Virus record (IMG/VR): IMGVR_UViG_3300040801_005051
Location: 1-43,210 of that record
Direction: 5' to 3' (one strand)
DNA length: 43,210 nucleotides
From: a virus
Part shown: piece by piece, positions 1 to 27,212 of the stretch
Layout of the letters: each line of letters begins with the position of its first letter
How positions within the stretch are numbered: position 1 is the first letter of the stretch
Position numbers and translations under genes: made by a program
Notes under the pieces: generated by a model
The model's database searches: none
Told to the model about the DNA's origin: nothing
The model's input: the letters and a program-made list of their open reading frames with translations, nothing else

Positions 1-722
1 AGCTTCAGTCCCAGTTCCCGCCCGAGCGTCTCGGCGACCGAACGGCGGAAGTCACGAATGCTGCCGGCGATGCTGCCCTGCCCAGCGGCGCGGGAGATCT
101 TCGCCGCCAGCTCGTTTCCGCTGAAGGCCCGGTAGCGCCCGTTGGCCAGTGTCTCGTTCAGCGTCGTGAGGATGGTCCAGACCTGACTTGACCGACTGGC
201 GTTGGCGATCGTGACTCCGCAAAGCTCCGCACGGTCACGGTAGAACACCAACTCGCCGCCCTCGAACGGCTCTGTCGCCGCCTTGGGCGTCTTCTCCGGC
301 TCCTGGGGGGCGTAGGCACGGTGCAGGACGGACTCGATCACGACCGCCAAGGTGCGGCCGCTGCGAGGGAACGGCTTGCTAATGCAGTCCTTGACGCCGT
401 GCTCGAAGAGCCGCCCGGCGATGGCGAAGCCCTCGCTACCGTGGGCGGTCATCGCGATCATGGGGACGTCGCGCATCGTCCGGCTCTGGTGAATCTCCCT
501 GGCCAGGTGCTCTCCGTACTCCACGCACGCCAGCCCGCGATCGTGCCGGACCGGAATCTGGAGGTCGAGCAGGACGTAGGTGAACCCCCCATCGGTGATA
601 TGCCCCCTCGCCTCCTCCTGGGACCGGGCCCAGGCGTGCTCGTGCCCGAGCGAATCAAGGGTGTCGGCCACCGATTCGGCGATGTCCGGGTCGTCTTCCA
701 CAATCAGTGCGCGATGCTTCAT
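1..722 (-). CDS. Response regulator, receiver plus C-terminal winged-helix-like domain (3' end cut by window edge)
   Basis: I translated this directly; it has no stop inside the window, so only the first 240 codons are present. Residues 1-120 form a receiver domain: acidic pair D10/D11, phosphoacceptor D53 in LLDLQIP, T92 in MTAHG and K116 in SKPFP. Residues 155-240 form a second domain, helical and basic (FSGNELAAKI, GSIRDFRRSV), which looks like a winged helix and suggests DNA binding or protein contact. The ATG lies 9 bp after the stop of the histidine kinase, so the two are almost certainly a cognate pair in one operon. The receiver assignment is firm. The output domain and its target are inference. 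Confidence 0.85.
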   Translation of the reverse strand, partial: MKHRALIVEDDPDIAESVADTLDSLGHEHAWARSQEEARGHITDGGFTYVLLDLQIPVRHDRGLACVEYGEHLAREIHQSRTMRDVPMIAMTAHGSEGFAIAGRLFEHGVKDCISKPFPRSGRTLAVVIESVLHRAYAPQEPEKTPKAATEPFEGGELVFYRDRAELCGVTIANASRSSQVWTILTTLNETLANGRYRAFSGNELAAKISRAAGQGSIAGSIRDFRRSVAETLGRELGLK

Positions 723-731
723 GACACAGGC

Positions 732-1892
732 TCAACCGACCGGCAAGATGATCGTCACGGTCGTTCCTTCGTTCTCCTTGCTGTCGATCGTCAGCCGCCC
801 GCCGTGGGCGGCCACGTACCGACGGGCGTTGCACAGCCCGAAGCCGGTCCCCACTTTGCGGCGGCTGGTGCGCCCGGGCAGGCACTCGCGAATCTCGTCC
901 AGGTTTGCGGCTGGGATGCCCTGGCCTGTATCGCGGACGGAAAGATGCACCTGCTTTCCGCGCCGAACCGCTCGAATCTCAATCTCGCCGCGGGGGCCGG
1001 CGGCATCGGCGGGGAGGAAGTCGTACGCGTTCTTCAGGATGTTCGCGATAGCGGTCACGATCTGGACCCGTGACACCTTGATGACGACGTCACGTGGGGC
1101 GGTGACATTGAGTGCCACGTTGCGGGGGCTGACGTTCCTCGCCTTGAGGTTCTGCGAAACGATGCTGCGGGCTTCGGTGATCAGGTCGGTTAGGTCTGCC
1201 GGTACTCGCTCATCCGAGATGGGGCGGGCCGAATTGCGCATTTCCTCCGTCAGCCGTTCTATGAACGACAGCCGCTCGGCCATCTTCAGCGACTTGCGCT
1301 TAAGAAACGCTGGATCAAGCTCATCGGCCTGCTGCCGCTCGATGATCGCGGCGTTGTCCTCCTTCAACGCGGTCAGGACGCTTCTGATCTCGTGGACGGT
1401 CGCGCCGATCAACGTGTCGTAGAGCTGCTCGGCCAGTCGACGGGCCTTCTCGGCCGCGTCCTTGCCGTGATCGGCCTCGAGCTCCTGGTAGAGCGCAAGC
1501 ACCAGATCGACGCCACGCTTGTTCTTCTTCGCCTCGCGGGCGGCTGCACGCCGGCGTTCTGCGCTCCGTTTCGCTGCCTTCCGCACGTAGGTGTGGCTGT
1601 CGCCCTCGAACCCGTCGAGCAAGGCCGCCAGTTCGTTATCGGGGATGGCCCCCAACGCGTCCGCCACGTCGCGACGCACTTCCCACTTCGGGTCGGCGGC
1701 CAGTAGCACCAGCAGCGAACGGAACGGCTCGCCCGCCTGGCCCTCTGAAAGCGGCCCGACCAACCGCTTCACGATCTCGCGTCGCTGCGGCCAGTCGATC
1801 GACTCTCGGTTGGCCTGTAGCGATGCCAGCGCCTCGGTCAGGTCGACCGACGACGACGCGGTCGCCGCGGACCGTGAGGCGGTGCTGGCCAT
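732..1892 (-). CDS. HEAT-repeat histidine kinase (soluble, GHKL ATPase)
   Basis: This 386-residue protein has no signal peptide or membrane segment, so the sensor is cytoplasmic. Residues 56-115 look like HEAT/armadillo repeats (DPKWEVRRDVADALG, DSHTYVRKAAKRS). Residues 130-225 are a helical dimerisation region with a candidate phospho-histidine H167 (VHEIRSVLT). The GHKL ATPase domain has an N-box (NILKN, 284-288), G1 (DTGQGIP, 321-327) and G2 (GTGFGL, 348-353). The ATG at 1892 shares one base with the TGA of the upstream ATPase gene, a TGATG coupling, and was preferred over a longer ORF that overlaps that gene. The repeats probably sense a partner protein or nucleic acid. It is followed directly by the response regulator. 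Confidence 0.85.
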   Translation of the reverse strand: MASTASRSAATASSSVDLTEALASLQANRESIDWPQRREIVKRLVGPLSEGQAGEPFRSLLVLLAADPKWEVRRDVADALGAIPDNELAALLDGFEGDSHTYVRKAAKRSAERRRAAAREAKKNKRGVDLVLALYQELEADHGKDAAEKARRLAEQLYDTLIGATVHEIRSVLTALKEDNAAIIERQQADELDPAFLKRKSLKMAERLSFIERLTEEMRNSARPISDERVPADLTDLITEARSIVSQNLKARNVSPRNVALNVTAPRDVVIKVSRVQIVTAIANILKNAYDFLPADAAGPRGEIEIRAVRRGKQVHLSVRDTGQGIPAANLDEIRECLPGRTSRRKVGTGFGLCNARRYVAAHGGRLTIDSKENEGTTVTIILPVG

Positions 1893-3823
1893 CAGTAGGC
1901 GTACCTTTCCTGGCGGCGCTTGAATGCCTGCTCGCCGCCCTCGAGCAGGTTGACGATGGACTCGCGGCACGCGTCCACGTCGCCGCACACGGAGGTGCGG
2001 GCTCGCCCGCCGTCGGACTCGAGGACGAAGACGCGTTCGGCGTCCGCGAGCACCGGGATATTCGGGTTGTGGGTCACGAACACCAACTGCCGCGCCGCCT
2101 TCGCCGTCCGGATGCTTTCGACCACCGACTCGCAGATGAAGCGGTTGTCGAGATTGTCTTCGGGCTGATCGACGAGCAGCGGCGTATCGCTGTCGAGCAG
2201 CAGGATCGGCAAGATCGTCGTGCACTTCTGCCCGGTGGAGAGCGCCGAGGACTCCTTGTAGCTGTCGCAGTCTTTCAGTTCGATGCACGGCCGGTCGGCC
2301 AGCTCGACGGACTCGATGGAGTAAAGAGCATCGGCGGTGCGAAGGCCGTCCACCACCTTGCGGGCTTGGTCGGCGTTGAGGCTCGTTGCCGCCTGGAGCC
2401 CCTCGACGTCTTCGCTTCGGATGAGGGCGACGAGTTCCATCGGCGTAACCCGCTCGACGATCTGCTGGGCCACCATGCCGCGTTTGACGCGGACCCCGTC
2501 CAGCAGGCTTTCCACGAGGTTGCGATACTCACCAAGGTGGCCTGACTGCTCGACGGTGACGCGGATGGCACCATGGAGTGCGTTGTTGATCCGTTCGGCG
2601 ATGCCACGGCGGATCGCGTACCGCTGATCCCGCAACTCCGACAGCTTCCGGAGGAGATCCGTCCGTTCGTCCTGCAGCTTCGCCTGCTTGTCGATCAGCG
2701 CATCGCGGTCACGTTCCTTTGTTCGCAGGCCGTTCAGCAGCTTCTCCAGCCGCGTCCGCTCAGACGCTTGGCCGCGAATGGCCGAATCCGCCTGTAGCAA
2801 CCTCTGGTACGCCGCCTCCTGTTCGGCGTGCGTCGTGGTGAGCGCCGTGCCCGCGTCGCCCAGCGCGTCCTGCAGGCGCGTGATCACGTTTCGAGACTGT
2901 CGCATCAGATCGTCGATTTCGACTCCACCGTCGAGCAGCTTCTGGCGAACAACCTTGATGGCCTCGCCGTTCGCGCCATTGGTCAAGTCGTCGGGAATCA
3001 GCTGGCGCGCCTGAGATTCAACCTGCCCCTGTAGAGCTTCAACCTTCTCGTCGTAGTCCTGCAGGAACTGCCACAGACCATCCATGGCATCTGATTCACG
3101 CTGCCGCATGGTCTTGGCCTGCTGCCCCTTCGTCACCTCTTCGGCGTTCTGTCCGGTTATCGGGCCGAGGCCCTTGAGCTTCTCATCGATGCCGCCTTTC
3201 GATGCGAGCTCGGTGTTCTTCGTCTCGATATCCTCTTGAAGCGGCGCAATCGCCGTGGCGTTGGTTGCGAGCTTGGAGGTGAGCGTGCGAAGCTCCGCGT
3301 TGATCGCGGCAATCTCGGCCCCTGCGAAGGTGTCGATCAGCGAAAGCTGCGATTGCGACTGCTCGGCAATGCGCTCGATCTCGTTCTGGCTGTAGATGTG
3401 CGCGCGAAACACCCCGTTGCCGGCGGCGTTGGGACGCAGGCTGATGTCAGTGGCCGCGCCGTCGGCGGTCACCACCACCGGGTCGTCCTGCCATGAGCGG
3501 ATGACGCGGTAGGCCAGACCGTCGCGAGTTTCGATCCCCACCTCGATCGTGCCGTTGCCGAGGTTAGCCTTGACCAGATTCTCGATCCGGTGCCGCTCTG
3601 CGCTGTTTCCGGCCGGAAGTGCGTCGAGCGCGTAACGCACGAGTTCAAGAACCGTCGTCTTCCCAGTGCCGCGGGCCCCGATGAGGCAGTTCAGCCCCTC
3701 GGCCAGATCGAGTTGGATGCCGTCGAGAAAGCCCCCGCTGATGGCAAAGCTGCGGATACGATGCGTGCCGGATTGAGCGGAGTCAGCGAGAGAGGGGGCC
3801 GGAGCCGTCGTGATGCCTTCCAT
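1892..3823 (-). CDS. SMC/RecF-like ABC ATPase with coiled coil
   Basis: A 643-residue ABC-type ATPase. It has Walker A GARGTGKTT near residue 50, long coiled-coil segments in the middle (roughly 180-420), an ABC signature (ALSTGQK) near 530, Walker B LLVDQPEDNLDN and an H-loop FVTHNPN. The QPEDNLDN form of Walker B resembles TrlF/OLD-type defence ATPases, but there is no PHP nuclease domain. The protein may act on DNA ends or as a nucleotide-driven clamp; that is inference. It is the first gene of a tightly coupled operon with the HEAT-repeat kinase and response regulator, behind its own sigma70-like promoter. Confidence 0.8.
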   Translation of the reverse strand: MEGITTAPAPSLADSAQSGTHRIRSFAISGGFLDGIQLDLAEGLNCLIGARGTGKTTVLELVRYALDALPAGNSAERHRIENLVKANLGNGTIEVGIETRDGLAYRVIRSWQDDPVVVTADGAATDISLRPNAAGNGVFRAHIYSQNEIERIAEQSQSQLSLIDTFAGAEIAAINAELRTLTSKLATNATAIAPLQEDIETKNTELASKGGIDEKLKGLGPITGQNAEEVTKGQQAKTMRQRESDAMDGLWQFLQDYDEKVEALQGQVESQARQLIPDDLTNGANGEAIKVVRQKLLDGGVEIDDLMRQSRNVITRLQDALGDAGTALTTTHAEQEAAYQRLLQADSAIRGQASERTRLEKLLNGLRTKERDRDALIDKQAKLQDERTDLLRKLSELRDQRYAIRRGIAERINNALHGAIRVTVEQSGHLGEYRNLVESLLDGVRVKRGMVAQQIVERVTPMELVALIRSEDVEGLQAATSLNADQARKVVDGLRTADALYSIESVELADRPCIELKDCDSYKESSALSTGQKCTTILPILLLDSDTPLLVDQPEDNLDNRFICESVVESIRTAKAARQLVFVTHNPNIPVLADAERVFVLESDGGRARTSVCGDVDACRESIVNLLEGGEQAFKRRQERYAY

Positions 3824-3919
3824 CGGTGGTCATATCCCCGTCAGTGGTGCTTCGGCTCATCACGCATCCTGCGGTTTCTCATGGCCGGACAGTCCTTGGC
3901 CTCTCTAGCCGATGCGATC

Positions 3920-3948
3920 AATATGTTTGGTTCGTGTTCGGTTGTCAA
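3920..3948 (-). promoter_or_regulatory. Sigma70-type promoter for the ATPase-kinase-regulator operon
   Basis: Read on the minus strand, a perfect -35 TTGACA (3943-3948) is followed after 17 bp by CATATT (3920-3925), a 4/6 match to TATAAT. It lies in the 141-bp gap between the DUF3732 gene and the SMC-like ATPase, about 95 bp before the ATG at 3823. The second operon can therefore be transcribed independently of the ABC-3C genes. Confidence 0.6.
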
Positions 3949-3964: not shown

Positions 3965-5911
3965 TTAGGCTTGCAGCCAATCGTCCGGCACAAGCTTCTG
4001 GCCGCCGCGCCACCTCTCGACCACGCTCTCCTGGAACCATGGCTCCGCGATGTCCGCGTGATCAGTCATGATGATCTGCAGACGACCATCCAGGGAGTCG
4101 GCAACGTCCTTCGAGATCAGATACATCTGAGCGACAGCCTGTCGGTCGTCATCTCCGACCTCCCCTGGGCCAGCCTCAACGTCAGGATCCTGCGGAAAGT
4201 ACACCTGCGACGGTTGGTCAACGAAGAGGAATCGTGGGACGGGCCGTTGCTTCATGACAAATAATCGGTGTAGCGCCAGGTGGGCAATCAGGTGATAGCC
4301 GACCCAATTGGCCCCACTGCCCATGCGCTCCATTGGCACGGGTCCGTCGTCAGTGTCAGCTACCACGGTCAGCCGCTTTGGGTCCAATCGAAGAGGTGAG
4401 TCTGCAAACTCCAGATTTAGGCGTCGCGCCCACTCGGACATGTCTTGCGTCATGCGGCCGATGAAAGACTGCATGCGTTCCTCAACTACCTCATCGCTCA
4501 ATTCTTCGGCGAGAGCCTCCGCCTCGCGCTTCAATCGCTCGATCTCTTGTCGCAGGTCGCTGTCATCTGCAGCTTCGGGCAGGCTCTCTAGATAAAGAGC
4601 TACGCGACCCATGATGTACGAGCGGCGTGCAAGGCTGTCACGAATGCGTTCAATCTCCACGTTCGTGCGTTGCAATGCATCCAACGCCTCTCTGTTCTCG
4701 CGTAGCCGCGTCTTGGCAGCGTCGAGACGTTCACGCAAGGTCCGAAGCACCTCATCCATCTGTGGAGACCGCTCCTGAACAGACCGCACTTCCTGAGAAA
4801 GGCGCTCGACCGCCGAAGAAAACTGCTCAACACCCGGCAGTGCGCCTTGCTGAAGCGATGTCTGGCAGAGCGGACAAGCGTGACCCGCGTCCTCGTCGCC
4901 ATCGCCGAATAGCTCGATGCTCTTCAACCGAGCGATTTGCGCCGACCCCTCTTTTGTGAAACCTTCGCGATCAGCTGCTAAGGCCTCGGCCGCCTCCAGT
5001 TGAGTCTTCACCGACCGCATCTCCTCGATCAGACGTCTCCGCTCCTCCTGCATTTGTTGAAACTGATCACCCGCATCTGTTAGCGCCTGCTCCTGCTCGA
5101 AGGGCAGGCGTTGAACCTCTCGTAGTAAATCGACGCTTGTCTCCCATGATTCAGGCAAGCGCTCCGTCTGGACGAGACCGAGGTCACGTACTTCCGCGAG
5201 CAGAGTGTGCGCTCGGCTCACGCCCGTACCGCGGATGGCATCAAGCTCGGCCAACTTCTTCTCAGCAGACTTCAGATCCCGCCGAAGCTGCCTTAGCTTC
5301 TGCATCTTCGCAACATGATCATCTGTCACCGCTCCGAGGAAGTAGGGAAGCACGTCCTTGATCGCCTGCGGAACAAATGGCTCGCTCTGCTTGTGGAACA
5401 GGTGCCGCTGGCTGATAACCTCACTTTGCTGCTGAAAGCAGAAGAAGAGGGCATGCCGGATGTTCGCGGAAAGCGCGGCTCTAGTCTGGCCCGACGGGGG
5501 CTCATGCACGTTAGCGCGAATCCCGGCATGTGCAGTAAGCAATCCTTCTAGCGCCCTTGGGTTTGTCGTCTGCCGAAGCCCGGCGTATTCGGGCACCTCA
5601 ACGTCCGCCCCAACGGAGTAATACACGTCAGACGATGCTTGGGCTCCGCTACTGGGAAGCCTTCGCGCGACAAAGACCTGCCCCTCGGGAACGCTCAACC
5701 GAAGGCCAACCCATTCCACCGCTCGGCGGATCACACCTTCTGGAATCCGACACTCGCCGCTGCCCATGCAGTAGTCGACAATCTCGATCAACGCGGTCTT
5801 GCCCGTCTTTGAGGCACCCGTGATGATGTTGAGTTGTCCGAGCCGCAGCGATAGTACCCGTCGTTGCTCGTTGATGCCGTACAACACGATGTCCAGTAGC
5901 TGAAAGCTCAT
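3965..5911 (-). CDS. ABC-3C system ATPase (DUF3732 family)
   Basis: A 648-residue Rad50/SMC-like ATPase. It has Walker A GASKTGKTALIEIVDYC near residue 30, a long coiled coil with a CPLC zinc-hook-like motif near its middle, an ABC signature region MGSGANWVGYHL, and the Walker B variant FLFVDQPSQVYFP typical of DUF3732. In ABC three-component systems this is the motor that senses or threads nucleic acid and licenses the effector. The ATG at 5911 overlaps the stop of the middle-component gene (ATGA); a longer in-frame start at 5968 would overlap it by 61 bp and was rejected. It is the last gene of the ABC-3C set. Confidence 0.87.
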   Translation of the reverse strand: MSFQLLDIVLYGINEQRRVLSLRLGQLNIITGASKTGKTALIEIVDYCMGSGECRIPEGVIRRAVEWVGLRLSVPEGQVFVARRLPSSGAQASSDVYYSVGADVEVPEYAGLRQTTNPRALEGLLTAHAGIRANVHEPPSGQTRAALSANIRHALFFCFQQQSEVISQRHLFHKQSEPFVPQAIKDVLPYFLGAVTDDHVAKMQKLRQLRRDLKSAEKKLAELDAIRGTGVSRAHTLLAEVRDLGLVQTERLPESWETSVDLLREVQRLPFEQEQALTDAGDQFQQMQEERRRLIEEMRSVKTQLEAAEALAADREGFTKEGSAQIARLKSIELFGDGDEDAGHACPLCQTSLQQGALPGVEQFSSAVERLSQEVRSVQERSPQMDEVLRTLRERLDAAKTRLRENREALDALQRTNVEIERIRDSLARRSYIMGRVALYLESLPEAADDSDLRQEIERLKREAEALAEELSDEVVEERMQSFIGRMTQDMSEWARRLNLEFADSPLRLDPKRLTVVADTDDGPVPMERMGSGANWVGYHLIAHLALHRLFVMKQRPVPRFLFVDQPSQVYFPQDPDVEAGPGEVGDDDRQAVAQMYLISKDVADSLDGRLQIIMTDHADIAEPWFQESVVERWRGGQKLVPDDWLQA

Positions 5912-6405
5912 GGTTGGATTCCCCAAAGTGCCATCACTGTTGCCGGTGAGCCCGCCGCCGCCAGCCACTTGCCCACGAATATCGCTTTGATGACGCAGTC
6001 TTTCGGTTCGGCCTCCAGCGACTGATACGACCTCCGCAGGGCGGCTTCCGTTCTGTCAGTCGTAAGCGAGGCGTCCTCTTGCATCGCAAACCACGCCCTG
6101 CTGCAGCCGAAGAGAATGGCTTCACGAGCAAATGGCTTCAGCGAGACAAGGCGCTCGTGGAACAGCACGCGTGCCGACGCGTTGACCTGAATCCACATGG
6201 GCAACGATGTGCGGCGGTCGCGAGGGAGCAAGTCCCTCGTTGGTTTGTGAAGTGTGATTGGCAGGATCATGAAAGCCAGACCGAGAGGAAGACCTCGGTT
6301 GGCATCTGCCTGGTAGCCAGCGATAGCGGCGGTCATCCCCAAGCAACAGAACGCGGGGTTAAGAAGATTGGCCTCTTCGTGGGGGCGTTCAGTCCACTCG
6401 GTCAT
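5908..6405 (-). CDS. ABC-3C system middle component
   Basis: A 165-residue mostly helical protein (NLLNPAFCCLGMTAAIAGY near the start). Its size, composition and position between the effector and the DUF3732 ATPase fit the middle component of ABC three-component systems, which is thought to bridge the other two. Both ends overlap neighbours by 4 bp (ATGA), so the three genes are translationally coupled. No catalytic motif is visible. The family call rests on context plus the opening NxxxNPxF-like motif. Confidence 0.75.
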   Translation of the reverse strand: MTEWTERPHEEANLLNPAFCCLGMTAAIAGYQADANRGLPLGLAFMILPITLHKPTRDLLPRDRRTSLPMWIQVNASARVLFHERLVSLKPFAREAILFGCSRAWFAMQEDASLTTDRTEAALRRSYQSLEAEPKDCVIKAIFVGKWLAAAGSPATVMALWGIQP

Positions 6406-7625
6406 CGGCGCACCTCCTCCGTTGCCGGTTCAAGCAGTAGGCGAAGGCGTGCTTCGAACTCGGGGTGCCAACCGATCTTAAGTTCATCGGCGAGAATGTG
6501 GAACGAGCCCCGGGCGACGAACCCATCTCGACACTGCGGGCGAATACGTGGAAGGTCACCGGTCTCAATCCACTTGTAGAGATTAGTGGCTGCGCGGCGC
6601 AACTCATCCTCAGCAGCTGACTCACCGAGTTCGTCGCGCATGATGAGGAAGTGAGACTGCCAAGCGTCTTTGAGGCGTGTGCCATACCGATCGAGATCGC
6701 CAACACCCACCAGCTCTTCACGGACCCAACGTGAACGCTGCACAAACGCCCGGTAGTAGTCTCGGATCGCGCGGACGACACGGGCATTGCTGATTTGAAT
6801 GAGGCGCAACTGATGGACGAAGACCCTCTCGGAATATCCAGTCGCGTCGACCTCCAACTGCTCAATGTCGTCATCGATTGGCAGGTTGTCTTCACGCAGC
6901 GACTCACGCAGGTTGTTGATCTCGTCCAGAAGCTCGGCACTCAGGATCGGAACGCCGCGATCCGCAGCCAGATGCCGAATCACTCGACGGAACCACCACC
7001 CCTCAAGGCGGCCCAGGAAAGCATCCAGGAAATGGCGGTCAACTGCGTAGAACACCTCCTGCCGGATGTCAGCATCAAGCGATGTGATCGATGATGCAGA
7101 ATCGACGACGATCACATCGTCGAGCAGTTGCTGCTGCTTCGTTCCATCCAACGCCTTGAAGGCTGTGTAGGCTGTAGCATTGGTCTGGTTGGTGGAAGTC
7201 GCCGCCGTTGACCGAAGTCGATCCAACGCACCCGACACATCCCGGCCCACACCTGGCCTCAGCATTTCAGCTGCCGAACCTGAGCCTGCCGACGCTGTAG
7301 TGACCAAGATGAATCGTGACCCCAGGTGTAGTGACCCGCTCGCGACGCCCTCACACCAGATGCGCAACGTCTTCCATAGATCGACCGACGCATCAGTCAG
7401 ATCAGCGGCTCGGTTGACGTGATGCTTCGTCTGCAGCAGCTCCGGCGGCGATCCCTGCTGGTCGAACACGACGTCGTCAAGCGTCTCGATGCAAACCTGG
7501 AAGTCGGCTTCCTGCCGCATTCTCCGTAGCGCTTCCAACAAGCTGTACCGACACTGGTAAAAGTACCCCGTGGCAGAAGCCGCCGCAGAGAAGGGATATC
7601 CGTTTGCCAAAGCTTCGCCCGTCAT
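6402..7625 (-). CDS. ABC-3C effector with Cap4-like nuclease N-domain
   Basis: A 407-residue protein. The N-terminal region (about 14-120) reads YFYQCRYSLLEAL, then ETLDDVVF, then LLQTKHH. This is the E/D...QxK arrangement of a Cap4-type PD-(D/E)XK DNA endonuclease, with the acidic residue in LDDV and the lysine in QTK likely catalytic. The C-terminal half (about 220-407) is helical and resembles the ABC-3C effector C-terminal domains that dock on the middle component. It is coupled to the small ORF upstream by ATGA. Nuclease activity is inferred from the motif; the exact C-terminal domain subtype is not certain. Confidence 0.78.
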   Translation of the reverse strand: MTGEALANGYPFSAAASATGYFYQCRYSLLEALRRMRQEADFQVCIETLDDVVFDQQGSPPELLQTKHHVNRAADLTDASVDLWKTLRIWCEGVASGSLHLGSRFILVTTASAGSGSAAEMLRPGVGRDVSGALDRLRSTAATSTNQTNATAYTAFKALDGTKQQQLLDDVIVVDSASSITSLDADIRQEVFYAVDRHFLDAFLGRLEGWWFRRVIRHLAADRGVPILSAELLDEINNLRESLREDNLPIDDDIEQLEVDATGYSERVFVHQLRLIQISNARVVRAIRDYYRAFVQRSRWVREELVGVGDLDRYGTRLKDAWQSHFLIMRDELGESAAEDELRRAATNLYKWIETGDLPRIRPQCRDGFVARGSFHILADELKIGWHPEFEARLRLLLEPATEEVRR

Positions 7626-7805: not shown

Positions 7806-10800
7806 TCACGTCCGCTCGTTCAGGTCCGGGAGTGACTTCACGATCTTCATCGTTTCGAGGCTGACGCGGATGAGGCGGGGGATGAGGTCGAGGATGTAGC
7901 GGGGGTCGTCGTGCTCTTTGCACCAGTCGTTGGGGTCGTTCTTGATGCCGCTCCCGTTCTTTTTATTGTCGACGGTGACTTTGTAGCGGTCCATGATCCA
8001 CTCGATGGCCGGCTTGCCGTTGACGACGTAGTCGTATGCTTCGAGCGGGATGTTGGTCAGGGTGATGTGGGCGTTGTAGACGATCTTCGTTTTGTCGTAC
8101 TTGAGCCCCTCGGCCTTCTGCTCTTTGGTGGGGCGACCGAAGGCCATCTTCTTGACCTTGAACTTCTCGAAGGTGTCCATGGTCATCGGGCCGGTGTCGT
8201 GTTCGATGACTTCGGGCCAGGGGTCGACGGTTTCGTAGTTGAGGTGCAAATCGGCGAGGTCGCGGCCGCCCCCGGAAAACTTCCAGAAGTCCTCGGCGGT
8301 GCCGGTGAGCGGGATGCGGGGGAGCATCTTCTTGAGGTCGGCCGCGAAGCGCGTCCGGTACTCGGGACTGTGCAGGATGCCGTAGACGTAATAGAAGATG
8401 TCTTCTTTCTCGACTTCCTTGCCCTTACCCTTCCGGGGGTAAGCGTCGCGGAACGTTTTGAGCATCCCATCGGTGATCGCGTCCCGACGGCGGTAGCCGT
8501 CGATGACTTCGCCATCCCCGGAAGTATCAAAGCCGAGCTTGCCGTCGTCCTCGGCCTTTTCGTAGAGGTAAAGGGGGAAGCATTGACCTGTGTCAAGCAT
8601 GTGATAGTTCGGAATGCAATCGAGAGCGAGAGCCGACCAATCCTTTCCTGCTCCACCGCCTGTCACAAATATCCCGATGTTTGGTAATCGTCCTTCAGGA
8701 AATACACTTGGAATCTGGTAAACAAATTCGTTTAAAGTCCTATCAAAGTAAATGCACTGCTTGGCGTAGGGACGGTAACCGCCCACAACTATCCCGTCTT
8801 TGCGCAGTTTTACTTTCTTACCAGATGCCACGTCATTCTTGAGTGCACGTGACCACGAGATTCGCTTCGGATCAGTATTGATCGTGTCAGACACTACAGG
8901 ATCGCGCTCCGCTCGCTTCAAACCCGCTACCGCTTCAAGTACGCGCGGTTGATCTTCGTTGTATGCGTCAATCATTCTCCGCATACTTTTTTCTACGGCC
9001 TGGCGTCCGAAGCTGTAGCACCACTTGTCCCGACTGGTTAGCACGCCCTGCGTGTAGTTCTCAAAGAATCGCAAGCCCTTCTCGCTGTCCTTATCGCCTA
9101 GCGGGATGAACTCATCAAAAGCCGGGTCGCGCTGGTTGATCCAGTCGTGTTCGGGGTTGGGTTTGATTGTGGTCCACTTCTTCACCTTGGCGATGCCACC
9201 GATGCTGGCGAAGCTGCGGATGATGCGGAGCTTCTCTTCACGTTTGAGGTAGTCGCCGATGTCGTAGTAGTGGAGCTTGGGCTTGCCTTTGTGAGAGGGA
9301 TTCTTGACAAGTAACGTGATGGCGATGGTATTGCGGCTCCCAGAACCGAAAATCTTTCCTCCTTCCTGACGTGATAGTTCCCCGGATGTACGTTGATTTC
9401 CGCGGAGGTTGAAGACGTAGAGCGAGGTAAACTCTTCGGAGAGGCTACCTCGCAAACCGTCCATATTGTTTGCGTCAATGAACGATCCATTGGTGACGAA
9501 TCCAACGATACCACGATCTTTTATCCGGTCACCAGCCCATCGGATGGCGCGAGTTTCGCTCGCATAGAGATTCTTTTTGAGCTTCGCTTTTGAGGCTTTT
9601 GCGTACGTTTCACGGATGCGCTGGTCGAGCGCAGTATATTCCAAACCCTTATTGTTGTCGTTCTCACTCTGCTGTTGAGCTGAATACGGCGGATTCGCAA
9701 TCACCACACGGATAGGGCTTTGTTGCTGGCGTTTGGCGCGTTTACTGTTTTCGGGGAATGTGCCTTCGATCTGGCCTTGCCTGGCTTCGTAGAGTTGGAA
9801 GGTGTCGGTGAGGACGATCCCATCAAACGGCTCATACTTCGCGGGCTTCGATTTGCCTTCACTTCCGGGGGCGGATGACATGAGGCCGTGATAGGTTTCT
9901 TCGATGTTGATCGCGGCGATGTAGTAGGCGAGCAGGACGATCTCGTTCGCGTGCAGCTCCCCCCGGAATTTGCGGGGCAGGTCTTTGCGGTCAATCAAGC
10001 CGGATTGGAGCACGCGGACAATAAACGTGCCGGTGCCGGTGAAGGGGTCGATGATGTGGACGTCTTTATCGCCGAGCGCGGAGTCGAACTCGCTCTTGAG
10101 GATGTCCTGTACGCTGTGGATGATGAAGTCGACGACTTCGGTGGGTGTGTAGACGATGCCGAGGCGTTCGGCCATCTTGGGGAAGGCGTTTTTGAAGAAT
10201 TCGTCGTAGAGCTCGATGATGACGCGCTGGCGGGCCTCGGCGTTGTCGAGCCCGGCGGCGCGGTCGCGAACGGAGGCGTAGAACTTTTCGAGCGTCTCGG
10301 CCTCTTTGCTGACGGATTGCTCGTCGAGCTTGTCGAGCATGCCTTGCATGGCTTGGGAGACCGGGTTGTGCTCGGTGAAGGCGTAGCCGGCGAAGAGGGC
10401 GTCGAAGACGGGCCGGGTGATGAGGTGTTGGGCGAGCATCTCGACGGCTTCGTCGGCAGTGACAGCGGGGTTCAGGCTGTCCTGCAGGCTGGCGAGAAAT
10501 TGCGCGAAGTCGTCGGCGTAGGGGGCGTCTTTGTCCTTGACGAGGGCTTTGATGCGGGTGATGTGCTTTTCGGCGATGCGGGCGATGTCGTTGGCCCACG
10601 TGGCCCAATAGGCGCGGTCGCCGACCTTCTTGACCATCTTGGCGTAGATGGCGTCTTTCCACTCGTCGAGCTGGGGGAAGGCGAACGCGCCTTGAATTTC
10701 GCGGGTCTTGGGTTTGGAGTCGCCGTCTGAGCTAGTGGACTCGCTGTCGCGTTGCTGGCCGATGGGGCCTGCGCCGATGACCTGGATGTTGTCGGGGCGT

Positions 10801-12761
10801 TGCTTGTTGAGTTCGATCTGGTTGACGGTGGCGTTGAAGCGGTCGTCGTGGGCGCGGAGGGCCTGGAGGACCTGCCAGACGACCTTGTATTTCTCGTTGT
10901 CCTTGAGGGCGTCCTCGGGGGTCTTGTTGGCGGGGATGCCGATGGGCAGGATGATGTAGCCGAACCGCTTATCGGGGGCGAGGCGCATGACGCGACCGAC
11001 GGACTGGACGACATCGATCTGTGAGTTTCGGGGGTTGAGAAACATGATCGCGTCGAGGGCGGGGACGTCAACGCCTTCGGAGAGGCAGCGGGCGTTGGAG
11101 AGGATTCTGGCTCCGCCGGAATGTTCTTCTTTCAACCACTCCAAAAGGGCATTGCGCCGGAGGGCGTCAAACGATCCATCCACGTGGTCGGTTTCGACGT
11201 CGAGGACGTCAAGGTCAGGGTGGTCGTCTTTGTAGGCCTCGACAATATCGTGGAACTGTTGGACGAAGCGTTTGGAGTCTTTGATGGTGCGGGAGAAGGC
11301 GACGGCCCGGCGCATTGGTTGGAGGTCGCCTTGGAGCTCGGGGGTTTGGCGGAGTGCTTCGAAGCGTTTTTCGAGGCCGTTCCAGCAGCCGGTGATGCGG
11401 GTAGCGTCGTCGAGGTTGAGTTCGCTCTTGCTAGCGAGTTGTTTTTGGAAGGTTTTGGCGACGTAGGACTCATCGACGGCAAGGACGAGGACCTTGTAGT
11501 CGGTGAGCAAGCCTTTGGAGACGGCGACACCAAAGCCGAGGCGATGGAGTTCTTCGCCGAAGACGGCGGGGTCGTCCATGGAGGCGATTTCGGCGGCGGC
11601 GTCGTTGGCTTTGGACTTGGCGTCTTCGCCGTAGATGCGGGGGGTGGCGGTCATGTAGAGCCGCTTGGCGGCCTTGATGAAGCCAGCGTCGTGGACCTTG
11701 ACGAAGTGGGATTCGTCTTGCCCGACGAGGGTGACGCCGGTGGTGCGGTGGGCTTCGTCGCAGATGACGAGGTCGAAGTCGGGCAGGCCGGCTTTCTGAG
11801 CTTTGTGGACGGCTTCGATGGAGTGGTAGGTGGAGAAGACGACGGTGAGTTTTTTCGTGCTGCCGGGGTCTTTGTCCTTGGCGGCGTAGGCGGCGAGGCT
11901 GTTGTATTGGGCGGTGAGTTGTCTGGCGTTGGTGGTGGCGGGGAAGGCGAGATCGTGGACGGTGATGTCCTCGGTGTCGTCCTTGGCTTTTCTGCGGCTG
12001 GTGCCGATGCTGACGTCGGAGCAGACGGCTAGGGCGCGGATGCCGTGGGTGGCCTGGGCGGTCCACTCGCGGAGGGTCTGGGCGAGGAGCGAGAGGGAGG
12101 GGACGAGGAAGAGGACGGTTCCCCCTTGGGCTTGCTTCTCAGCGATCTTGAGGGCGGTGAAGGTCTTGCCGGTGCCGCAGGCCATGATGAGCTTGCCGCG
12201 GTCGGCGGACTTGAAGCCGTTGATGACGTCGGCGATGGCTTCTTGCTGGTGTAGGCGGGGCTTGTGCTTGGCGAGTCGCTTGAGGGCTTGGGGGCGTTTG
12301 GCGTCGAAGACTGACCAGTCGATGGGGCTGGCTTCGATGTCATGGACGCTGAGTCGGGTTACGGGCTTGGTCTGGTGGTTGAGTGCGTCGTCGGCGTTCT
12401 TGCCCCACTTGTCGGTCGTGGAGATGATGATGCCGGAAGAGAATTGCTTGCGGCCCATGGCCGTGAAGAAAGAGTCGATGTCGCCTTTGGAGAGAGTGTG
12501 TTCGGGGAGGTAGAACTTGCACTGGATGGCGACGTGTTCGCCGGTGGCGCGGTCGCGGGCGACGAGGTCGATGCCGACGTCGCCGACCTTGCCCTTGTCG
12601 GGCCAGTCGTTCCACATCCAGATTTTGTCGAAGCGGTCGGCGTAGGTGGGGTCGAGTTCGAAGTAGCGGACCATCAGCCGCTCGAAGCGGTCGCCGAGGT
12701 CACGGTTGTTGCGGGCGTCGTCCCGGAATTGGGCGAGGATGTCTTGCAGATTCTTGGGCAT
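7806..12761 (-). CDS. Type ISP restriction-modification enzyme (nuclease-helicase-methyltransferase-TRD)
   Basis: A 1,651-residue single-chain enzyme in the order known for LlaGI/LlaBIII. Residues 50-115 are an Mrr-like nuclease with D65 (GIDLVA) and Q80/K82 (IQCKF). Residues about 165-640 are an SF2 helicase with Walker A ACGTGKTF (194-201), DEAH 335-338 and MTATPR. Residues about 860-1,100 are a gamma-type adenine methyltransferase with motif I FTGTGTF (907-913) and NPPY (1023-1026). The rest holds the target-recognition region. It would methylate host DNA and translocate along and cut unmodified DNA. It starts 3 bp after the HTH gene stop. The reading frame is intact, and base composition is somewhat less GC-rich than the prophage. 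Confidence 0.92.
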   Translation of the reverse strand: MPKNLQDILAQFRDDARNNRDLGDRFERLMVRYFELDPTYADRFDKIWMWNDWPDKGKVGDVGIDLVARDRATGEHVAIQCKFYLPEHTLSKGDIDSFFTAMGRKQFSSGIIISTTDKWGKNADDALNHQTKPVTRLSVHDIEASPIDWSVFDAKRPQALKRLAKHKPRLHQQEAIADVINGFKSADRGKLIMACGTGKTFTALKIAEKQAQGGTVLFLVPSLSLLAQTLREWTAQATHGIRALAVCSDVSIGTSRRKAKDDTEDITVHDLAFPATTNARQLTAQYNSLAAYAAKDKDPGSTKKLTVVFSTYHSIEAVHKAQKAGLPDFDLVICDEAHRTTGVTLVGQDESHFVKVHDAGFIKAAKRLYMTATPRIYGEDAKSKANDAAAEIASMDDPAVFGEELHRLGFGVAVSKGLLTDYKVLVLAVDESYVAKTFQKQLASKSELNLDDATRITGCWNGLEKRFEALRQTPELQGDLQPMRRAVAFSRTIKDSKRFVQQFHDIVEAYKDDHPDLDVLDVETDHVDGSFDALRRNALLEWLKEEHSGGARILSNARCLSEGVDVPALDAIMFLNPRNSQIDVVQSVGRVMRLAPDKRFGYIILPIGIPANKTPEDALKDNEKYKVVWQVLQALRAHDDRFNATVNQIELNKQRPDNIQVIGAGPIGQQRDSESTSSDGDSKPKTREIQGAFAFPQLDEWKDAIYAKMVKKVGDRAYWATWANDIARIAEKHITRIKALVKDKDAPYADDFAQFLASLQDSLNPAVTADEAVEMLAQHLITRPVFDALFAGYAFTEHNPVSQAMQGMLDKLDEQSVSKEAETLEKFYASVRDRAAGLDNAEARQRVIIELYDEFFKNAFPKMAERLGIVYTPTEVVDFIIHSVQDILKSEFDSALGDKDVHIIDPFTGTGTFIVRVLQSGLIDRKDLPRKFRGELHANEIVLLAYYIAAINIEETYHGLMSSAPGSEGKSKPAKYEPFDGIVLTDTFQLYEARQGQIEGTFPENSKRAKRQQQSPIRVVIANPPYSAQQQSENDNNKGLEYTALDQRIRETYAKASKAKLKKNLYASETRAIRWAGDRIKDRGIVGFVTNGSFIDANNMDGLRGSLSEEFTSLYVFNLRGNQRTSGELSRQEGGKIFGSGSRNTIAITLLVKNPSHKGKPKLHYYDIGDYLKREEKLRIIRSFASIGGIAKVKKWTTIKPNPEHDWINQRDPAFDEFIPLGDKDSEKGLRFFENYTQGVLTSRDKWCYSFGRQAVEKSMRRMIDAYNEDQPRVLEAVAGLKRAERDPVVSDTINTDPKRISWSRALKNDVASGKKVKLRKDGIVVGGYRPYAKQCIYFDRTLNEFVYQIPSVFPEGRLPNIGIFVTGGGAGKDWSALALDCIPNYHMLDTGQCFPLYLYEKAEDDGKLGFDTSGDGEVIDGYRRRDAITDGMLKTFRDAYPRKGKGKEVEKEDIFYYVYGILHSPEYRTRFAADLKKMLPRIPLTGTAEDFWKFSGGGRDLADLHLNYETVDPWPEVIEHDTGPMTMDTFEKFKVKKMAFGRPTKEQKAEGLKYDKTKIVYNAHITLTNIPLEAYDYVVNGKPAIEWIMDRYKVTVDNKKNGSGIKNDPNDWCKEHDDPRYILDLIPRLIRVSLETMKIVKSLPDLNERT

Positions 12762-12764
12762 GCG

Positions 12765-16253: not shown

Positions 16254-18257
16254 TTATGCGAAGGTCAAACCACCATGGCGCATCTCGCGTTCGATGCGCT
16301 TGGTGTTGCGGGCGGTGGCCTCGGCCGCGTCGGCGGTGCGTTCGGCGGCGTCGCTCTGCAACGCCATGCCGACGAGCGCCGCGGGGTTGAACGACCCCAC
16401 CGACACGATGCGGTCCATAGCCCGGTCCAACTCTTCTCCCAGGCCCGAGAGGTCGGGCAGTTCCAACCCATCGATCCCTGGCACGGGGCTCTCACCAGCC
16501 TCGACGGACTCCCGCTTCTGCCTCGCCTCGGCGATCGCCTGCTCCCACTCGCGGCGGGCCTCGATGAGTGCCTTCTCGGCGTCGCGCTGCGCGTGGGCTT
16601 GTTCTTGAGCCTGTCGGTCTTGCTCGTCCTCGTACCGCTGGCCGATGACGCCGAGCGTCTGCTCGTTGAGCCTGGCCGACTGGCGGCGTCGGCTCTCGCG
16701 ACGGCGGTCGGTCTCGATGACCTGCTCGCCGGTGCTGGCATCGATCTCCGACAGCCGCCCCCGGATTGCTCTGTCGATCTCGGCGTTCGCCTTGCTGGGG
16801 TCAAGCGAGTCGTCGAATAGCGACTTGATGACGTTCCACGTCTTTGCCGCCAGCGCCCGCATCCGCTCCCACGAGCGGTTGAAGATGTTGACGAACCCCA
16901 GCCACGCGGTCTGCAGGAACGCGGTGGTCTCGATCCAGCCCGCTTCGAGGCCGTGCCAGACGAGCTGCAGCGCCGACAACGCGCCGGTGAACGCGCCGAC
17001 CAGCAGGTCCATGATGAAGTGCTTGAAGCCCAGCCACAGCCCCTGAACGAAGTTGATGCCCCGCACCCACTCGGCCTTGAGCGCCAGCCACAGGACGCGG
17101 GCCGCGAGCGAGACGTCTCCCGCCGCCAACGCATCCGCGATCCCCCGGAAGGTGGCCGCCGCGCGATCGCGGAGCTGGGTGAATCGGTCGGCCAGCCAGT
17201 CGAGCGCTTGTCCCGCGATGCCGCTGGCGTGCAGCAGGTACGCCGACAGCGCCGTCACGGCCACGATCACCAACCCGATCGGCGAGACGAGGAACGCCAA
17301 ACCGGCGGCCAAACCGCCCAGCAGCGACACCACCCCGGCAACGGCCGACGCCAACGCACCCATGACTAGGGCCGAGCCGATCAACAGCCCGCCCAGCAGG
17401 ATCAGGGCGATGCCGGCCCCGGTGATGACCGCGGCGATCTTCGCGGCCTGCACGACCAGCTGGCGGTTGGCCTTGATCCACTCGCTGGCAATCACCGCCA
17501 GCCGCAGCAGCGTGTCGGCGAGCTTGGTCAGCAGCGGTGCCAGCGCCGCTCCGACGTTGAACACCCCCTGGCGGACCACTTTCCACAATCGGTCGAGGGC
17601 ATCGGTGAAGACCTCGGCCGCCGCGGCGTCCTCGCCCGACATCGTCAGGCCCAGGCGTCGCGCTTCTTCCTGCAACGCCGAGATGCCCTCGGCCCCCTGG
17701 GCGAACATCGGCAGCAGCTGCGTGCCGGCCCGACCGAAAAGGGCCTGGGCCAGCGCCGCCTTGCGGGTGGGGTCTTCGATTTCCGCGATGGCGTCGGCGA
17801 TCCGCTTGAACTGCTCCTCGGGCCCCCCGGTAAGCCCGTCGAGGTCCTCGTACGCCAGCCCCAGGTCCGCGAGCGCGTCGGTCTGCGTCGACAGCCCACG
17901 GCCCGCGTCGTAGACCGATCGCTGCATGCGACGCAGCCCGCTTTCCAACGCCTCCAGCGACGTGCCGGTCTGGCTGGCCACGAACTTCAGCTCCGACAAC
18001 GCCTCGACCGAGAAGCCGGTGCGTTTGGCCATCTTGGCAACCTGGTCGCCGTACGAGCTGAAGTATTTGGCCGACGCGACCAGCGGGGTCAACAGCGCAG
18101 TGCCGATGCCGGCCACACGCAGGCCCATCCCCCGGATTGCGCCGCCGAAGGCTCGCAGCTTGCGTTGGGCGGCGCGGAGGGCGCGGACCAGCTTGGTGTC
18201 GTCGGCGAACAGCTCGACGAAGGCCCGACCGGCCCGGATGCCCTTGGATGATGCCAT
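16254..18257 (-). CDS. Phage tail tape measure protein
   Basis: A 667-residue protein that sets tail length and is threaded through the tail tube. The N-terminal 200 residues match the TP901-type tape measure start (FVELFADDTKLVRALRAAQ, then AKRTGFSVEALSELKF). The middle (about 270-350) has several hydrophobic helices (ITGAGIALILLGGLLIG, VVSLLGGLAAGLAFLV). The C-terminal third is a charged coiled coil (RQAQEQAHAQRDAEKALIEARREW). At about 2 kb it implies a short tail. Confidence 0.88.
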   Translation of the reverse strand: MASSKGIRAGRAFVELFADDTKLVRALRAAQRKLRAFGGAIRGMGLRVAGIGTALLTPLVASAKYFSSYGDQVAKMAKRTGFSVEALSELKFVASQTGTSLEALESGLRRMQRSVYDAGRGLSTQTDALADLGLAYEDLDGLTGGPEEQFKRIADAIAEIEDPTRKAALAQALFGRAGTQLLPMFAQGAEGISALQEEARRLGLTMSGEDAAAAEVFTDALDRLWKVVRQGVFNVGAALAPLLTKLADTLLRLAVIASEWIKANRQLVVQAAKIAAVITGAGIALILLGGLLIGSALVMGALASAVAGVVSLLGGLAAGLAFLVSPIGLVIVAVTALSAYLLHASGIAGQALDWLADRFTQLRDRAAATFRGIADALAAGDVSLAARVLWLALKAEWVRGINFVQGLWLGFKHFIMDLLVGAFTGALSALQLVWHGLEAGWIETTAFLQTAWLGFVNIFNRSWERMRALAAKTWNVIKSLFDDSLDPSKANAEIDRAIRGRLSEIDASTGEQVIETDRRRESRRRQSARLNEQTLGVIGQRYEDEQDRQAQEQAHAQRDAEKALIEARREWEQAIAEARQKRESVEAGESPVPGIDGLELPDLSGLGEELDRAMDRIVSVGSFNPAALVGMALQSDAAERTADAAEATARNTKRIEREMRHGGLTFA

Positions 18258-25086: not shown

Positions 25087-26521
25087 CCGTGTCGTTCTCC
25101 TGGTCGGTCTGCGACGGGTCTTCGGGGCTGGCCTCGGATGCACTGAGCCCCAGTTCGTCCATCAGCTGCTTTTCCTTCGCCCGCTGGCGAAGCTCGCCTT
25201 CCCAGTCCTTGCCCTGCCGCGCGTATTCGCTCGCGAGCGTGGTGGTGTGGTTTGCCAGTCGCGTCGCTTGCGCGTTGGCCTCCTTGGCCGGATCAACGTG
25301 CTCGGTGCCGTCCCAGAACCACTGGTGCGACATCTCTTTGTCCTTGAGGTCGCCTCGGAGGAAGGCGAAGTCGCTCAGCAGTCGCGCTTCGTGAAGCCAG
25401 GCGGCGAAGATGGGGTCGAGCACCGACGTATTGCAGTCGGACTGCTCCACGCGGATCGATTTGAAGTAGGTCTGGTGGTCGAGGCGGCCCGAGGCGTAGT
25501 TGTAGCCCGACGAGTTGCCTGCAGCGACGTTGAACGGCATGTTCAGGCAGCGGGCAATCTCGTTCAGCAGCTCGCGCTTGAACTCGCTGTAGGTCGTGCC
25601 CGGTTGCTCGGCCTTGATCTGCCCGAGCTTCCACCCGTCGGGCAGCACGGTGGCCATCCGCTTCTCGAGCTCGACAATGTCCATCGGTTCGACCGCCGCC
25701 GCTTCGCCGTTGGCCGGCGCGTCGGTAAACAGCACGGCCGCGAAGTCGGCCGCCGTTTCCGCAGCGCCCAGGACCGCGAGCGTGTACCGCCTCAGCTGCG
25801 CGAACAGTGGAAGCGCCGGCGTGATCTCGGGCACGCCGCGGAGCTGGCCCGGGCGGTCGGGCCGGAACCAGTGGATCACGTCGGCGGCGGGCACCGCGTC
25901 GTAGTGTGCGGTTGGCGAGTCGGGCGCGTAGGCCTCGCCGGGGTGCAGGCGGAGGATCGTGTAGGTGCGGGGGTTGCCGTGCCGGTCGAGGATGATGCCG
26001 TCGACGTCGCTCGTGGTCGGTAGCACCGCCATCGTCGGCGACACCACGCGGTCGGCCTCCACCAGCCTCACGTCGAGCTGGACCGGCGCGTCCATCACCG
26101 GGTTGGCGGTGAGCACCGCGAAGACCTCGCCGTCGGTCGCCTTGGCCATCCGCATCGTGCGGAGCTTCTCGGCCAGGCGGACCTCGCGTGCCCACTCGGC
26201 GAACGCGGACTCGACCACGCGGTTGACCTCCGGGTCGTCGGTCAGCACCTGCAGCCGTGGCCCGGTGCCCACGCAGTCGTTGGCCAGCGTCAGCACGACG
26301 CCTTTCGCGTAGGAGTTGTTCGCCACCTCGTAGCGGGCGCGGTTGCGGAGCGTCCGCCGGACTTCGTGCGAAGCGGCGGCGTTGGCCGACAGCCCGTCGG
26401 CGTTCTGCCAGTGGCGGGCGTTCTCCACCGTGGTGGCGGCGGCGTCGTACCGCGCTTTCAGCGCCCCCAGCGTTACCGGGAGGGACCGTAGGGCCTTCGT
26501 GCTCTTTGGGAACGGCCACAT
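25049..26521 (-). CDS. Portal protein, lambda family
   Basis: A 490-residue portal of the lambda gpB type. It has the N-terminal segment ARYDAAATTVENARHW, RYEVANNSYAKGVVLTLANDCVGTGP, the VIHWFRPDRPGQLRGVPEI motif and the C-terminal MPFNVAAGNSSGYNYASGRLD motif. It forms the DNA entry channel of the head and binds the terminase. Its start shares one base group (TGATG) with the preceding small gene. The C-terminus is acidic and probably flexible. Confidence 0.92.
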   Translation of the reverse strand: MWPFPKSTKALRSLPVTLGALKARYDAAATTVENARHWQNADGLSANAAASHEVRRTLRNRARYEVANNSYAKGVVLTLANDCVGTGPRLQVLTDDPEVNRVVESAFAEWAREVRLAEKLRTMRMAKATDGEVFAVLTANPVMDAPVQLDVRLVEADRVVSPTMAVLPTTSDVDGIILDRHGNPRTYTILRLHPGEAYAPDSPTAHYDAVPAADVIHWFRPDRPGQLRGVPEITPALPLFAQLRRYTLAVLGAAETAADFAAVLFTDAPANGEAAAVEPMDIVELEKRMATVLPDGWKLGQIKAEQPGTTYSEFKRELLNEIARCLNMPFNVAAGNSSGYNYASGRLDHQTYFKSIRVEQSDCNTSVLDPIFAAWLHEARLLSDFAFLRGDLKDKEMSHQWFWDGTEHVDPAKEANAQATRLANHTTTLASEYARQGKDWEGELRQRAKEKQLMDELGLSASEASPEDPSQTDQENDTDVDDTGDQRQAA

Positions 26522-26996: not shown

Positions 26997-27212
26997 TTAC
27001 ACCGGTGGAATTCGCGAGCGATACTCCCCGCGGGACGGCTCGCCCGCGACGGTTTCGCGCGTCACGATCCGCCGCCCGCAGTGGCGGCAAGCGCGGACGC
27101 GGGTCACGCCGCGGTTGGTCGGACGGGTGTAGACGACGCGGAAGTCGCGGCACCCGCAGGCGCGGCACTCGAAGCCGGCAACGGCCGGGCTGACACTCTC
27201 GGTCTGGATCAT
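26997..27212 (-). CDS. Com-like zinc-ribbon protein
   Basis: A 71-residue protein whose ATG overlaps the terminase stop (ATGA). It has two CxxC pairs (CRAC and CRHC) separated by 22 residues with many basic residues between, a zinc-ribbon fold similar to Mu Com or Ogr-type small regulators. It could regulate translation or late transcription, or help DNA packaging. The zinc ribbon is clear, the role is not. Confidence 0.7.
   Translation of the reverse strand: MIQTESVSPAVAGFECRACGCRDFRVVYTRPTNRGVTRVRACRHCGRRIVTRETVAGEPSRGEYRSRIPPV

Follow-up and report, generated by a model that had tools for sequence, protein, structure and literature searches.

A TrlF-type ATPase, a histidine kinase, and a response regulator encoded together in temperate phages: a possible transcriptional switch

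Three coupled genes at the edge of a phage record

At one edge of the viral record IMGVR_UViG_3300040801_005051 from IMG/VR, whose entire sequence of 43,210 bases is referred to here as the window, three genes are encoded on the minus strand (3823..3)—those of an ATPase, a histidine kinase (HK), and a response regulator (RR)—which set we will call the trio; the related and neighboring loci gathered in this analysis are labeled with an L and a number. The ATPase gene occupies 3823..1892 (643 aa; Pfam AAA_21, AAA_23, and SMC_N; NCBIfam TrlF_fam_ATP), the HK gene 1892..732 (386 aa; Pfam HATPase_c, together with an AlphaFold model), and the RR gene 722..3 (240 aa before the window edge; Pfam Response_reg). 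The ATPase stop and the HK start have one base in common (TGATG), and the HK stop lies 9 bp before the RR start; therefore, we consider the three genes to be coupled. The RR gene is truncated at window position 1, its relatives measuring about 250–390 aa; completion of the RR in a circular record was ruled out, the RR frame not being carried on at the other record end, so that the gene is simply cut.

Upstream of the ATPase gene a sequence match to a sigma-70-like promoter, TTGACA-N17-CATATT, is found at 3948..3920 on the minus strand, a kind of site for which about 1.4 chance occurrences are expected in every 8 kb. The initial annotation, made from the sequence alone, had described three coupled genes behind a promoter of this type, and had read them as an ABC-type ATPase, a soluble kinase with HEAT-like repeats, and a receiver with a DNA-binding tail; both descriptions were confirmed, the latter by the agreement of Pfam, NCBIfam, and PADLOC. 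The sequence TTGACAnCCtAAC 5' of the ATPase is conserved in L002 and L004 and imperfect in L030. Within the −35/−10 spacer (3925..3943, minus strand) lies a direct repeat, CCGAACA-N4-CCAAACA, with the 11-bp period that is the spacing of PhoB-type operators; its equivalents are CCTAACA-AAAA-GCGAACA in L002 and CCTAACA-GAAT-CCGTACA in L004, and the pattern CCnAACA-N4-(C/G)CnnACA occurs in the spacer of the ATPase promoter in the window, L002, and L004 only. This repeat is suggestive—and only suggestive—of a predicted operator through which the trio would control itself. A general 11-bp operator was considered and rejected: an early strong enrichment with respect to simple shuffles vanished against control regions, and across all the trio promoters no enrichment of 11-bp direct repeats was found with respect to control promoters or regions.

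The ATPase matched the NCBIfam TrlF_fam_ATP profile (NF045780/NF042955 family entries, comprising the TrlF ATPases and Ppl) with 304 bits over profile positions 286–943 of 944, a score that does not reach the equivalog cut-off of 350, since the protein lacks the N-terminal part. No PHP nuclease domain was found in the Pfam scan, the TrlF match beginning only at profile position 286. Judged by these matches, the ATPase is of the TrlF/Ppl type without the PHP nuclease, rather than a generic SMC/RecF protein; the earlier designation as SMC/RecF-like thus stands as regards the ABC type and the SMC_N match, and gives way to the more specific family. The Walker A (GARGTGKT), the signature (LSTGQKC), the Walker B/D-loop (LLVDQPEDNLDN), and the H-loop (THNPNIPVL) motifs are 95–100% conserved in an alignment of 82 relatives. 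The C-terminal motifs DQPEDNLDN, THNPNIPV, and LEGGxxAFxxR are shared with TrlF/Ppl; the trio ATPase, however, lacks the N-terminal PHP part, and its output would go to the neighboring HK.

The HK gave 79.7 bits with HATPase_c and 26.6 bits with HEAT_2, the latter slightly below the cut-off of 27.7. Its AlphaFold model, with a predicted local-distance difference test (pLDDT) of 88, comprises helical repeats at 18–96, a DHp-type helix pair at 144–222, and the catalytic domain, and shows no evident transmembrane stretch. Among 80 relatives, His167, Asn288, and the GxG motif (350–352) are conserved in 100%, and the DxGxG motif (321–325) in 97–100%.

The RR matched Response_reg with 48 bits, and the receiver residues Asp53 (100%), Lys116 (100%), and Asp10 (99%) are preserved across its relatives. 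In the window the receiver is followed by the start of an OmpR/PhoB-like winged helix, within which the truncation falls; in the alignment the longer relatives have an additional C-terminal winged helix-turn-helix (wHTH), with the motif TAKRxLxxL. The RR of L065, the nearest complete relative, was modeled: the AlphaFold prediction (pLDDT 89) contains the receiver, an OmpR/PhoB-like winged helix at 155–258, and a second wHTH at 286–346. The top Foldseek matches of this model were whole regulators of the OmpR/PhoB family—RpaA, MtrA, and VanR, and also KdpE—over about 265 columns, spanning the receiver and the wHTH, with a large root-mean-square deviation because of domain orientation. A rerun with VIA-align returned rows filled by receiver domains and was uninformative on the winged helix, and Pfam Trans_reg_C gave no match in the RR. 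The RR thus resembles the OmpR/PhoB-family regulators in the receiver and in the winged helix with its GYRL hairpin, but differs from them in usually bearing a further C-terminal wHTH and in being always tied to the ATPase and the HEAT-bearing HK. Taken together, the alignments and the models predict that the RR is a DNA-binding transcription factor, built of a receiver and an OmpR/PhoB-like winged helix, to which a second helix-turn-helix (HTH) is often added.

Conservation of the trio and its distant relatives

The ATPase query retrieved 80 loci from genomes and 50 from viruses, most of them from metagenome-assembled genomes or viral contigs that may be mis-binned or incomplete. The linkage count covered the 89 loci, taken as non-PHP, in which the sequence extended 2.6 kb or more past the ATPase, their genes being called by a home-made codon score: both the HK and the RR followed in 77 of them, and a search of open reading frames revealed the HK in three more (L025, L033, L103). 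Among the remaining misses three were PHP-type and six (L073–L075, L077, L078, L081) had no HK, so that after these corrections the order ATPase-HK-RR was kept in about 80 of 86 loci, which loci may be related and hence do not count as independent events. An operon unique to the window was accordingly ruled out, and the conserved linkage in other genomes that the initial annotation had proposed to look for does exist; the homologues reside in phages, plasmids, and defense islands rather than in housekeeping loci.

According to the record titles, the hosts belong to the Planctomycetota, Verrucomicrobiota, Lentisphaerota, Myxococcota, Alphaproteobacteria, Magnetococcales, Gemmatimonadota, and Neomarinimicrobiota—at least six phyla—and the cultured carriers include Chthoniobacter flavus Ellin428, Enhygromyxa salina, and Plesiocystis pacifica. 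In the ATPase tree the trio clade is monophyletic save for a few nested HK-less members (support 0.91; core clade, 0.998), and the transition between phage-type and other neighborhoods requires a minimum of 14 switches. If, as one possibility, the trio were an ordinary host two-component system that phages had acquired by chance along with an ABC ATPase unrelated to it, the generic nature of its receiver, DHp, and HATPase_c domains would be accounted for; a monophyletic ATPase clade that keeps its HK and RR across those phyla and lies repeatedly in phages and islands would not. The linkage and context data largely refute this explanation, which we regard as highly improbable.

No conserved fourth gene of an effector type follows the RR in the relatives, the downstream neighbors varying by host group. 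In the isolated phages of INPHARED the trio was not found, the matches there being generic kinases or PHP-type ATPases, and the open literature searched contained no description of the trio or of TrlF in connection with phages.

The more distant ATPase relatives are partnered with other phospho-signaling parts: on plasmids, an HK and an RR that is joined to a TCAD9/APH-like kinase; elsewhere, TCAD9 proteins or SpoIIE. Among those without an HK are the relatives from Nannocystis, where a zinc-ribbon Ser/Thr-kinase-like gene comes next (L074/L075), and L073; an acidobacterial relative without an adjoining HK is paired with a SpoIIE phosphatase (L081), and two from the Bacteroidetes (L077, L078) with TCAD9 proteins. 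A shared theme suggested by these sequences would be that the state of the ATPase is read by a phosphotransfer module, and from this theme we infer that the ATPase is the sensor. The HEAT-like domain of the HK had no match in the SpoIIE and TCAD9 partner proteins and a weak one in a single plasmid kinase (E 2e-4 among 8 sequences). The initial annotation had assigned the sensing to the HEAT repeats; this part may equally be a docking surface for the ATPase, the likelier sensor.

The plasmid loci with the arrangement ATPase-HK-RR::TCAD9 were L132:5971-10116 (Klebsiella pneumoniae NZ_CP054974, with an adjoining SMEK-domain gene), L133:4995-9164 (Phaeobacter NZ_CP081253), and L134:4929-9155 (Rhodococcus NZ_CP096564), the K. 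pneumoniae locus having no match in complete E. coli genomes. They are like the trio in the ATPase type (PHP-less TrlF), the kinase type, and the gene order, their HK being short; but in their regulator a TCAD9/APH-like kinase domain takes the place of the DNA-binding domains, and in the tree they do not belong to the window clade. These operons are likely an enzyme-effector cousin of the trio.

The regulatory slot and the operator-like arrays

In the alphaproteobacterial and verrucomicrobial types of trio phages, the trio lies between the integrase and the early recombination genes. In order to see what sister phages carry there, we used three Sak4 alignments—of the alpha-, verruco-, and window-type trio phages—as queries against viral contigs, which search yielded 33, 34, and 21 phages, respectively. 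The slot beside the early recombination genes proved to be occupied by exchangeable cassettes: XRE regulators, M78 (ImmA/IrrE) peptidases, proteins of about 383 and about 300 aa, others, or the trio. In the verruco-type phages, where the slot consists of the divergent genes by Sak4, the trio was present in 3 of 34, the others having XRE, M78, and the ~383-aa and ~300-aa proteins in various combinations, or a three-gene set of 202/153/342; in the alpha-type phages it was present in 2 of 33, both being the query's own contigs, and the remaining slots contained XRE together with M78, or else further sets that include a sigma-like gene. The XRE plus M78 cassette we take to be the ImmR/ImmA type of mobile-element regulator. 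None of the trio-bearing slots contained an XRE, M78, or 383-aa cassette in addition; conversely, the trio ATPase was absent from 20 sister phage records with other cassettes (0/20), and M78 was found in 0 of 20 trio records versus 6 of 20 sister records, which records are often fragments. The ~383-aa family occurs in all three backbones, so that the slot is an exchange site for regulatory cassettes.

The cassette of XRE, M78, ~383-aa, and ~280–370-aa proteins, in varying combinations, is an undescribed one and recurs in phages of three unrelated backbones; examples are L220, L225, L241, L247, L250, and L251 (upstream of Sak4), L177, and L300, L307, L320, and L372. Neither the ~383-aa nor the ~280–370-aa proteins had Pfam matches. 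A zinc-ribbon slot protein, the second of its cassette (L317:4778-5845:+), has a C-terminal winged helix like that of the RR (21.5 bits, E 3e-5).

In the verrucomicrobial group the interval between the early genes and the ATPase is densely occupied by the palindromic or repeated words CCCATATGGG, CACATAGGGT, and TGATACCGGTATCA, which at each locus are confined, or nearly so, to that interval and are missing from the same interval of the sister phages; the words were picked by eye, which circumstance makes the confinement count partly circular. A held-out test is free of this circularity: ACCCTATG was learned on six loci of the Sak4-type verrucomicrobial backbone and tried on ten loci of other backbones, and 15 occurrences were found 5' of the ATPase in those ten loci, as against 2.3 in shuffles, with 0 of 200 shuffles reaching 15, while at other genes the word occurred 0.12 times per region. 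In a de novo word count, CCCATGTG/CCCATATG was present in two or more copies in 8–9 of 15 loci, versus 4–5 in shuffles. By these counts, the operator-like arrays travel with the trio across differing verrucomicrobial phage backbones.

The trio accordingly compares with the known lysogeny regulators of phages—the CI/LexA-like S24, the XRE, and the ImmR/ImmA types—in that it occupies the same slot, is replaced there by ImmA/ImmR-like cassettes in the sisters, and, in the verrucomicrobial phages, likewise has operator-like arrays in the interval that separates it from the early genes; it differs in being, as we propose, a phosphorelay plus a sensor ATPase in place of a protease-sensitive repressor. 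Separately, XRE-S24 repressor or LexA-like genes were observed directly 5' of the ATPase at L033:569-1252 (18 bp) and L050:208-834 (92 bp), which arrangement hints at a link to the SOS response.

Phage switch, defense cargo, or regulator of defense genes

The window itself is a tailed temperate phage according to PHROG and Pfam, a point that the initial annotation had not made, and its genes run mostly leftward. A large serine integrase is encoded at 41605..43116 (plus strand; PHROG/Pfam) and a sigma-factor-like protein at 40749-41369 (plus), between the integrase and the early genes; relatives of this sigma-like gene recur at the same place in many sister phages. On the minus strand there follow an exonuclease VIII-like protein (40292..39414), a Sak4-type AAA protein (39323..38553), SSB (38523..38068), a helicase (37260..35530), a primase (about 35533..33518), a ParB-methyltransferase (33070..31682), the terminase (29527..27209), the portal (26521..25049), the head protease (25086..23041), and the tape measure (18257..16254). 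Repressor-type domains of the S24, HTH_3, and M78 families were not found in the record. Further on, still on the minus strand, come a type ISP restriction-modification (RM) enzyme of 1651 aa (7806..12761; Pfam Mrr_cat_2, ResIII, ISP_coupler, and Type_ISP_C), preceded by a 64-aa excisionase-like HTH gene (together, 7806-12959), and a Lamassu-type ABC-3C operon (3965..7625; Pfam and PADLOC) composed of LmuA (Cap4-like, with CTD7; 7625..6402), LmuC/MC3 (6405..5908), and LmuB/DUF3732 (5911..3965), so that the ABC-3C and type ISP neighbors of the initial annotation were corroborated at 7625..3965 and 12761..7806. The trio ATPase matches LmuB weakly; the strong LmuA, LmuB, and LmuC matches belong to these neighbors. 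The end of LmuB is separated from the ATPase by 141 bp, and the trio lies at the far end of the phage in its reading direction, past the ISP enzyme and the Lamassu genes, which placement is repeated in L011, L012, L021, and L033, where a convergent serine integrase comes directly after the RR.

Among the families tested, phage-type neighbors adjoined 26 of the 29 viral trios and 29 of the 69 trios in genomes. These contexts, the slot, and the arrays lead us to propose that the trio is a transcriptional switch of phages and mobile elements, which would act on lysogeny and induction through its own promoter and, in the slot-type phages, the early promoter; to this proposal we give an even chance, and such a switch would probably control lysogeny and induction. 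In the mechanism that we envisage, the PHP-less TrlF/Ppl-type ATPase would be the sensor, its signal being most plausibly an event at the level of DNA or of replication (damage, for example, or a second infection); the ATPase would dock on the HEAT-like repeats of the HK and set the balance between kinase and phosphatase; phosphate would pass from His167 of the HK to Asp53 of the RR, both of which residues are conserved; and the RR would bind the trio's own promoter via the modeled winged helix and, often, the second HTH. In the slot-type phages the RR would bind the divergent early promoter as well and so control lysogeny and induction, while the window trio, cargo-like beside Lamassu and ISP, may act in trans on phage genes or else control the defense genes at its side.

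Several observations weigh against this proposal. About 40 of the 69 genome trio loci are without a phage neighbor among the families tested; the window trio stands outside the regulatory slot, with RM and Lamassu genes as its neighbors; the L012 trio begins 24 bp after BrxL of a BREX system, with a slot protein of the 383-aa type across the integrase; HTH_3 was above the cut-off in 3 of 20 trio records (and in 6 of 20 sister records); and in the alphaproteobacterial, the myxobacterial/magnetococcal, and the planctomycete groups no shared operator motif exceeded the shuffled null, the lentisphaeral group giving poly-T words only. Moreover, the sensing of DNA by the ATPase, the contact of the ATPase with the kinase, and the sign of the regulation are elements that we infer.

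If, alternatively, the trio were an anti-phage defense cargo, the ATPase would detect the phage and the phosphorelay would trigger a toxic or protective program via the RR. The ATPase family indeed takes in Ppl, an anti-phage protein, and resembles the LmuB, AriA, and GajA-type ATPases; the plasmid relatives fuse a TCAD9/APH-like kinase enzyme to the receiver in the manner of an effector; and, in addition to BrxL in L012 and to Lamassu and ISP in the window, the neighbors include a type I RM context in L006, where the ATPase overlaps an AAA_13 gene, and in L010, where the trio follows an N6-methylase/HsdM gene, as well as a KAP NTPase after the trio in L014 and a NOV_C protein after it in L039. 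Within the window clade, however, the RR ends in DNA-binding domains and not in an enzyme, with no conserved effector gene behind it; neither the HK nor the trio is represented by a PADLOC model; and residence in a regulatory slot instead of XRE/ImmA cassettes, together with arrays on a divergent early promoter, would be unexpected of mere cargo. This explanation we consider somewhat unlikely, and of the defense-signaling operon originally annotated there remain the signaling trio itself and the defense neighbors at some loci, the DNA-binding RR being the sole output found and the lysogeny-control slot of many phages speaking no less for a control over phage genes.

Detocs, the two-component anti-phage system DtcABC, likewise combines a response regulator with a soluble histidine kinase that bears repeats. 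As initially suggested, the trio is nevertheless distinct from it: the HK gives a HEAT_2 and not a TPR match in Pfam, with helical repeats in the model; an ABC ATPase is added; and a DNA-binding regulator replaces the bare relay from receiver to effector. Nor was a gene for a nucleoside phosphorylase effector seen, the window ending inside the RR and the relatives having no conserved gene after it.

As a further alternative, the trio may be a dedicated regulator of the adjoining RM, BREX, or Lamassu genes, in the way of the WYL-type BrxR and BrxR-like proteins or of RptR, its carriage by phages following that of the cargo. The close co-directional upstream genes of L012 (BrxL, 24 bp), L006 (the AAA_13 overlap), L010 (HsdM), and the window (LmuB, 141 bp) would agree with such a role, as would the WYL genes that adjoin 14 trios, and the control of islands by dedicated regulators has published precedents (PMC9122601, PMC9122589, PMC12255303). 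Many phage trios, however, have no RM, BREX, or Lamassu neighbor in the stretch examined, and the trio lies downstream of the defense genes with a promoter of its own, the operators seen being therefore those on its own and on the early-gene promoters. We hold this possibility to be distinctly unlikely.

Returning to the transcriptional switch, we put forward a more far-reaching version with tentative confidence: in temperate phages of several phyla, a phosphorelay fed by a TrlF-type ATPase without nuclease may constitute the first widespread two-component lysogeny switch, which would descend from an ATPase of abortive infection and trade places with XRE/ImmA cassettes in a modular regulatory slot. 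Should the trio be a defense system instead, it would be a two-component type not described before, in which an ATPase does the sensing. If the switch is what it does, phages of the Planctomycetota, Verrucomicrobiota, Lentisphaerota, Myxococcota, and Alphaproteobacteria would choose between dormancy and lysis by means of a phosphorelay and not of a cleavable repressor; a transcriptional reporter would make the signal of the TrlF/Ppl ATPases directly testable; and the sensor would have been borrowed from an anti-phage nuclease family, which origin would link the defense ATPases to the decision-making of the phages themselves.

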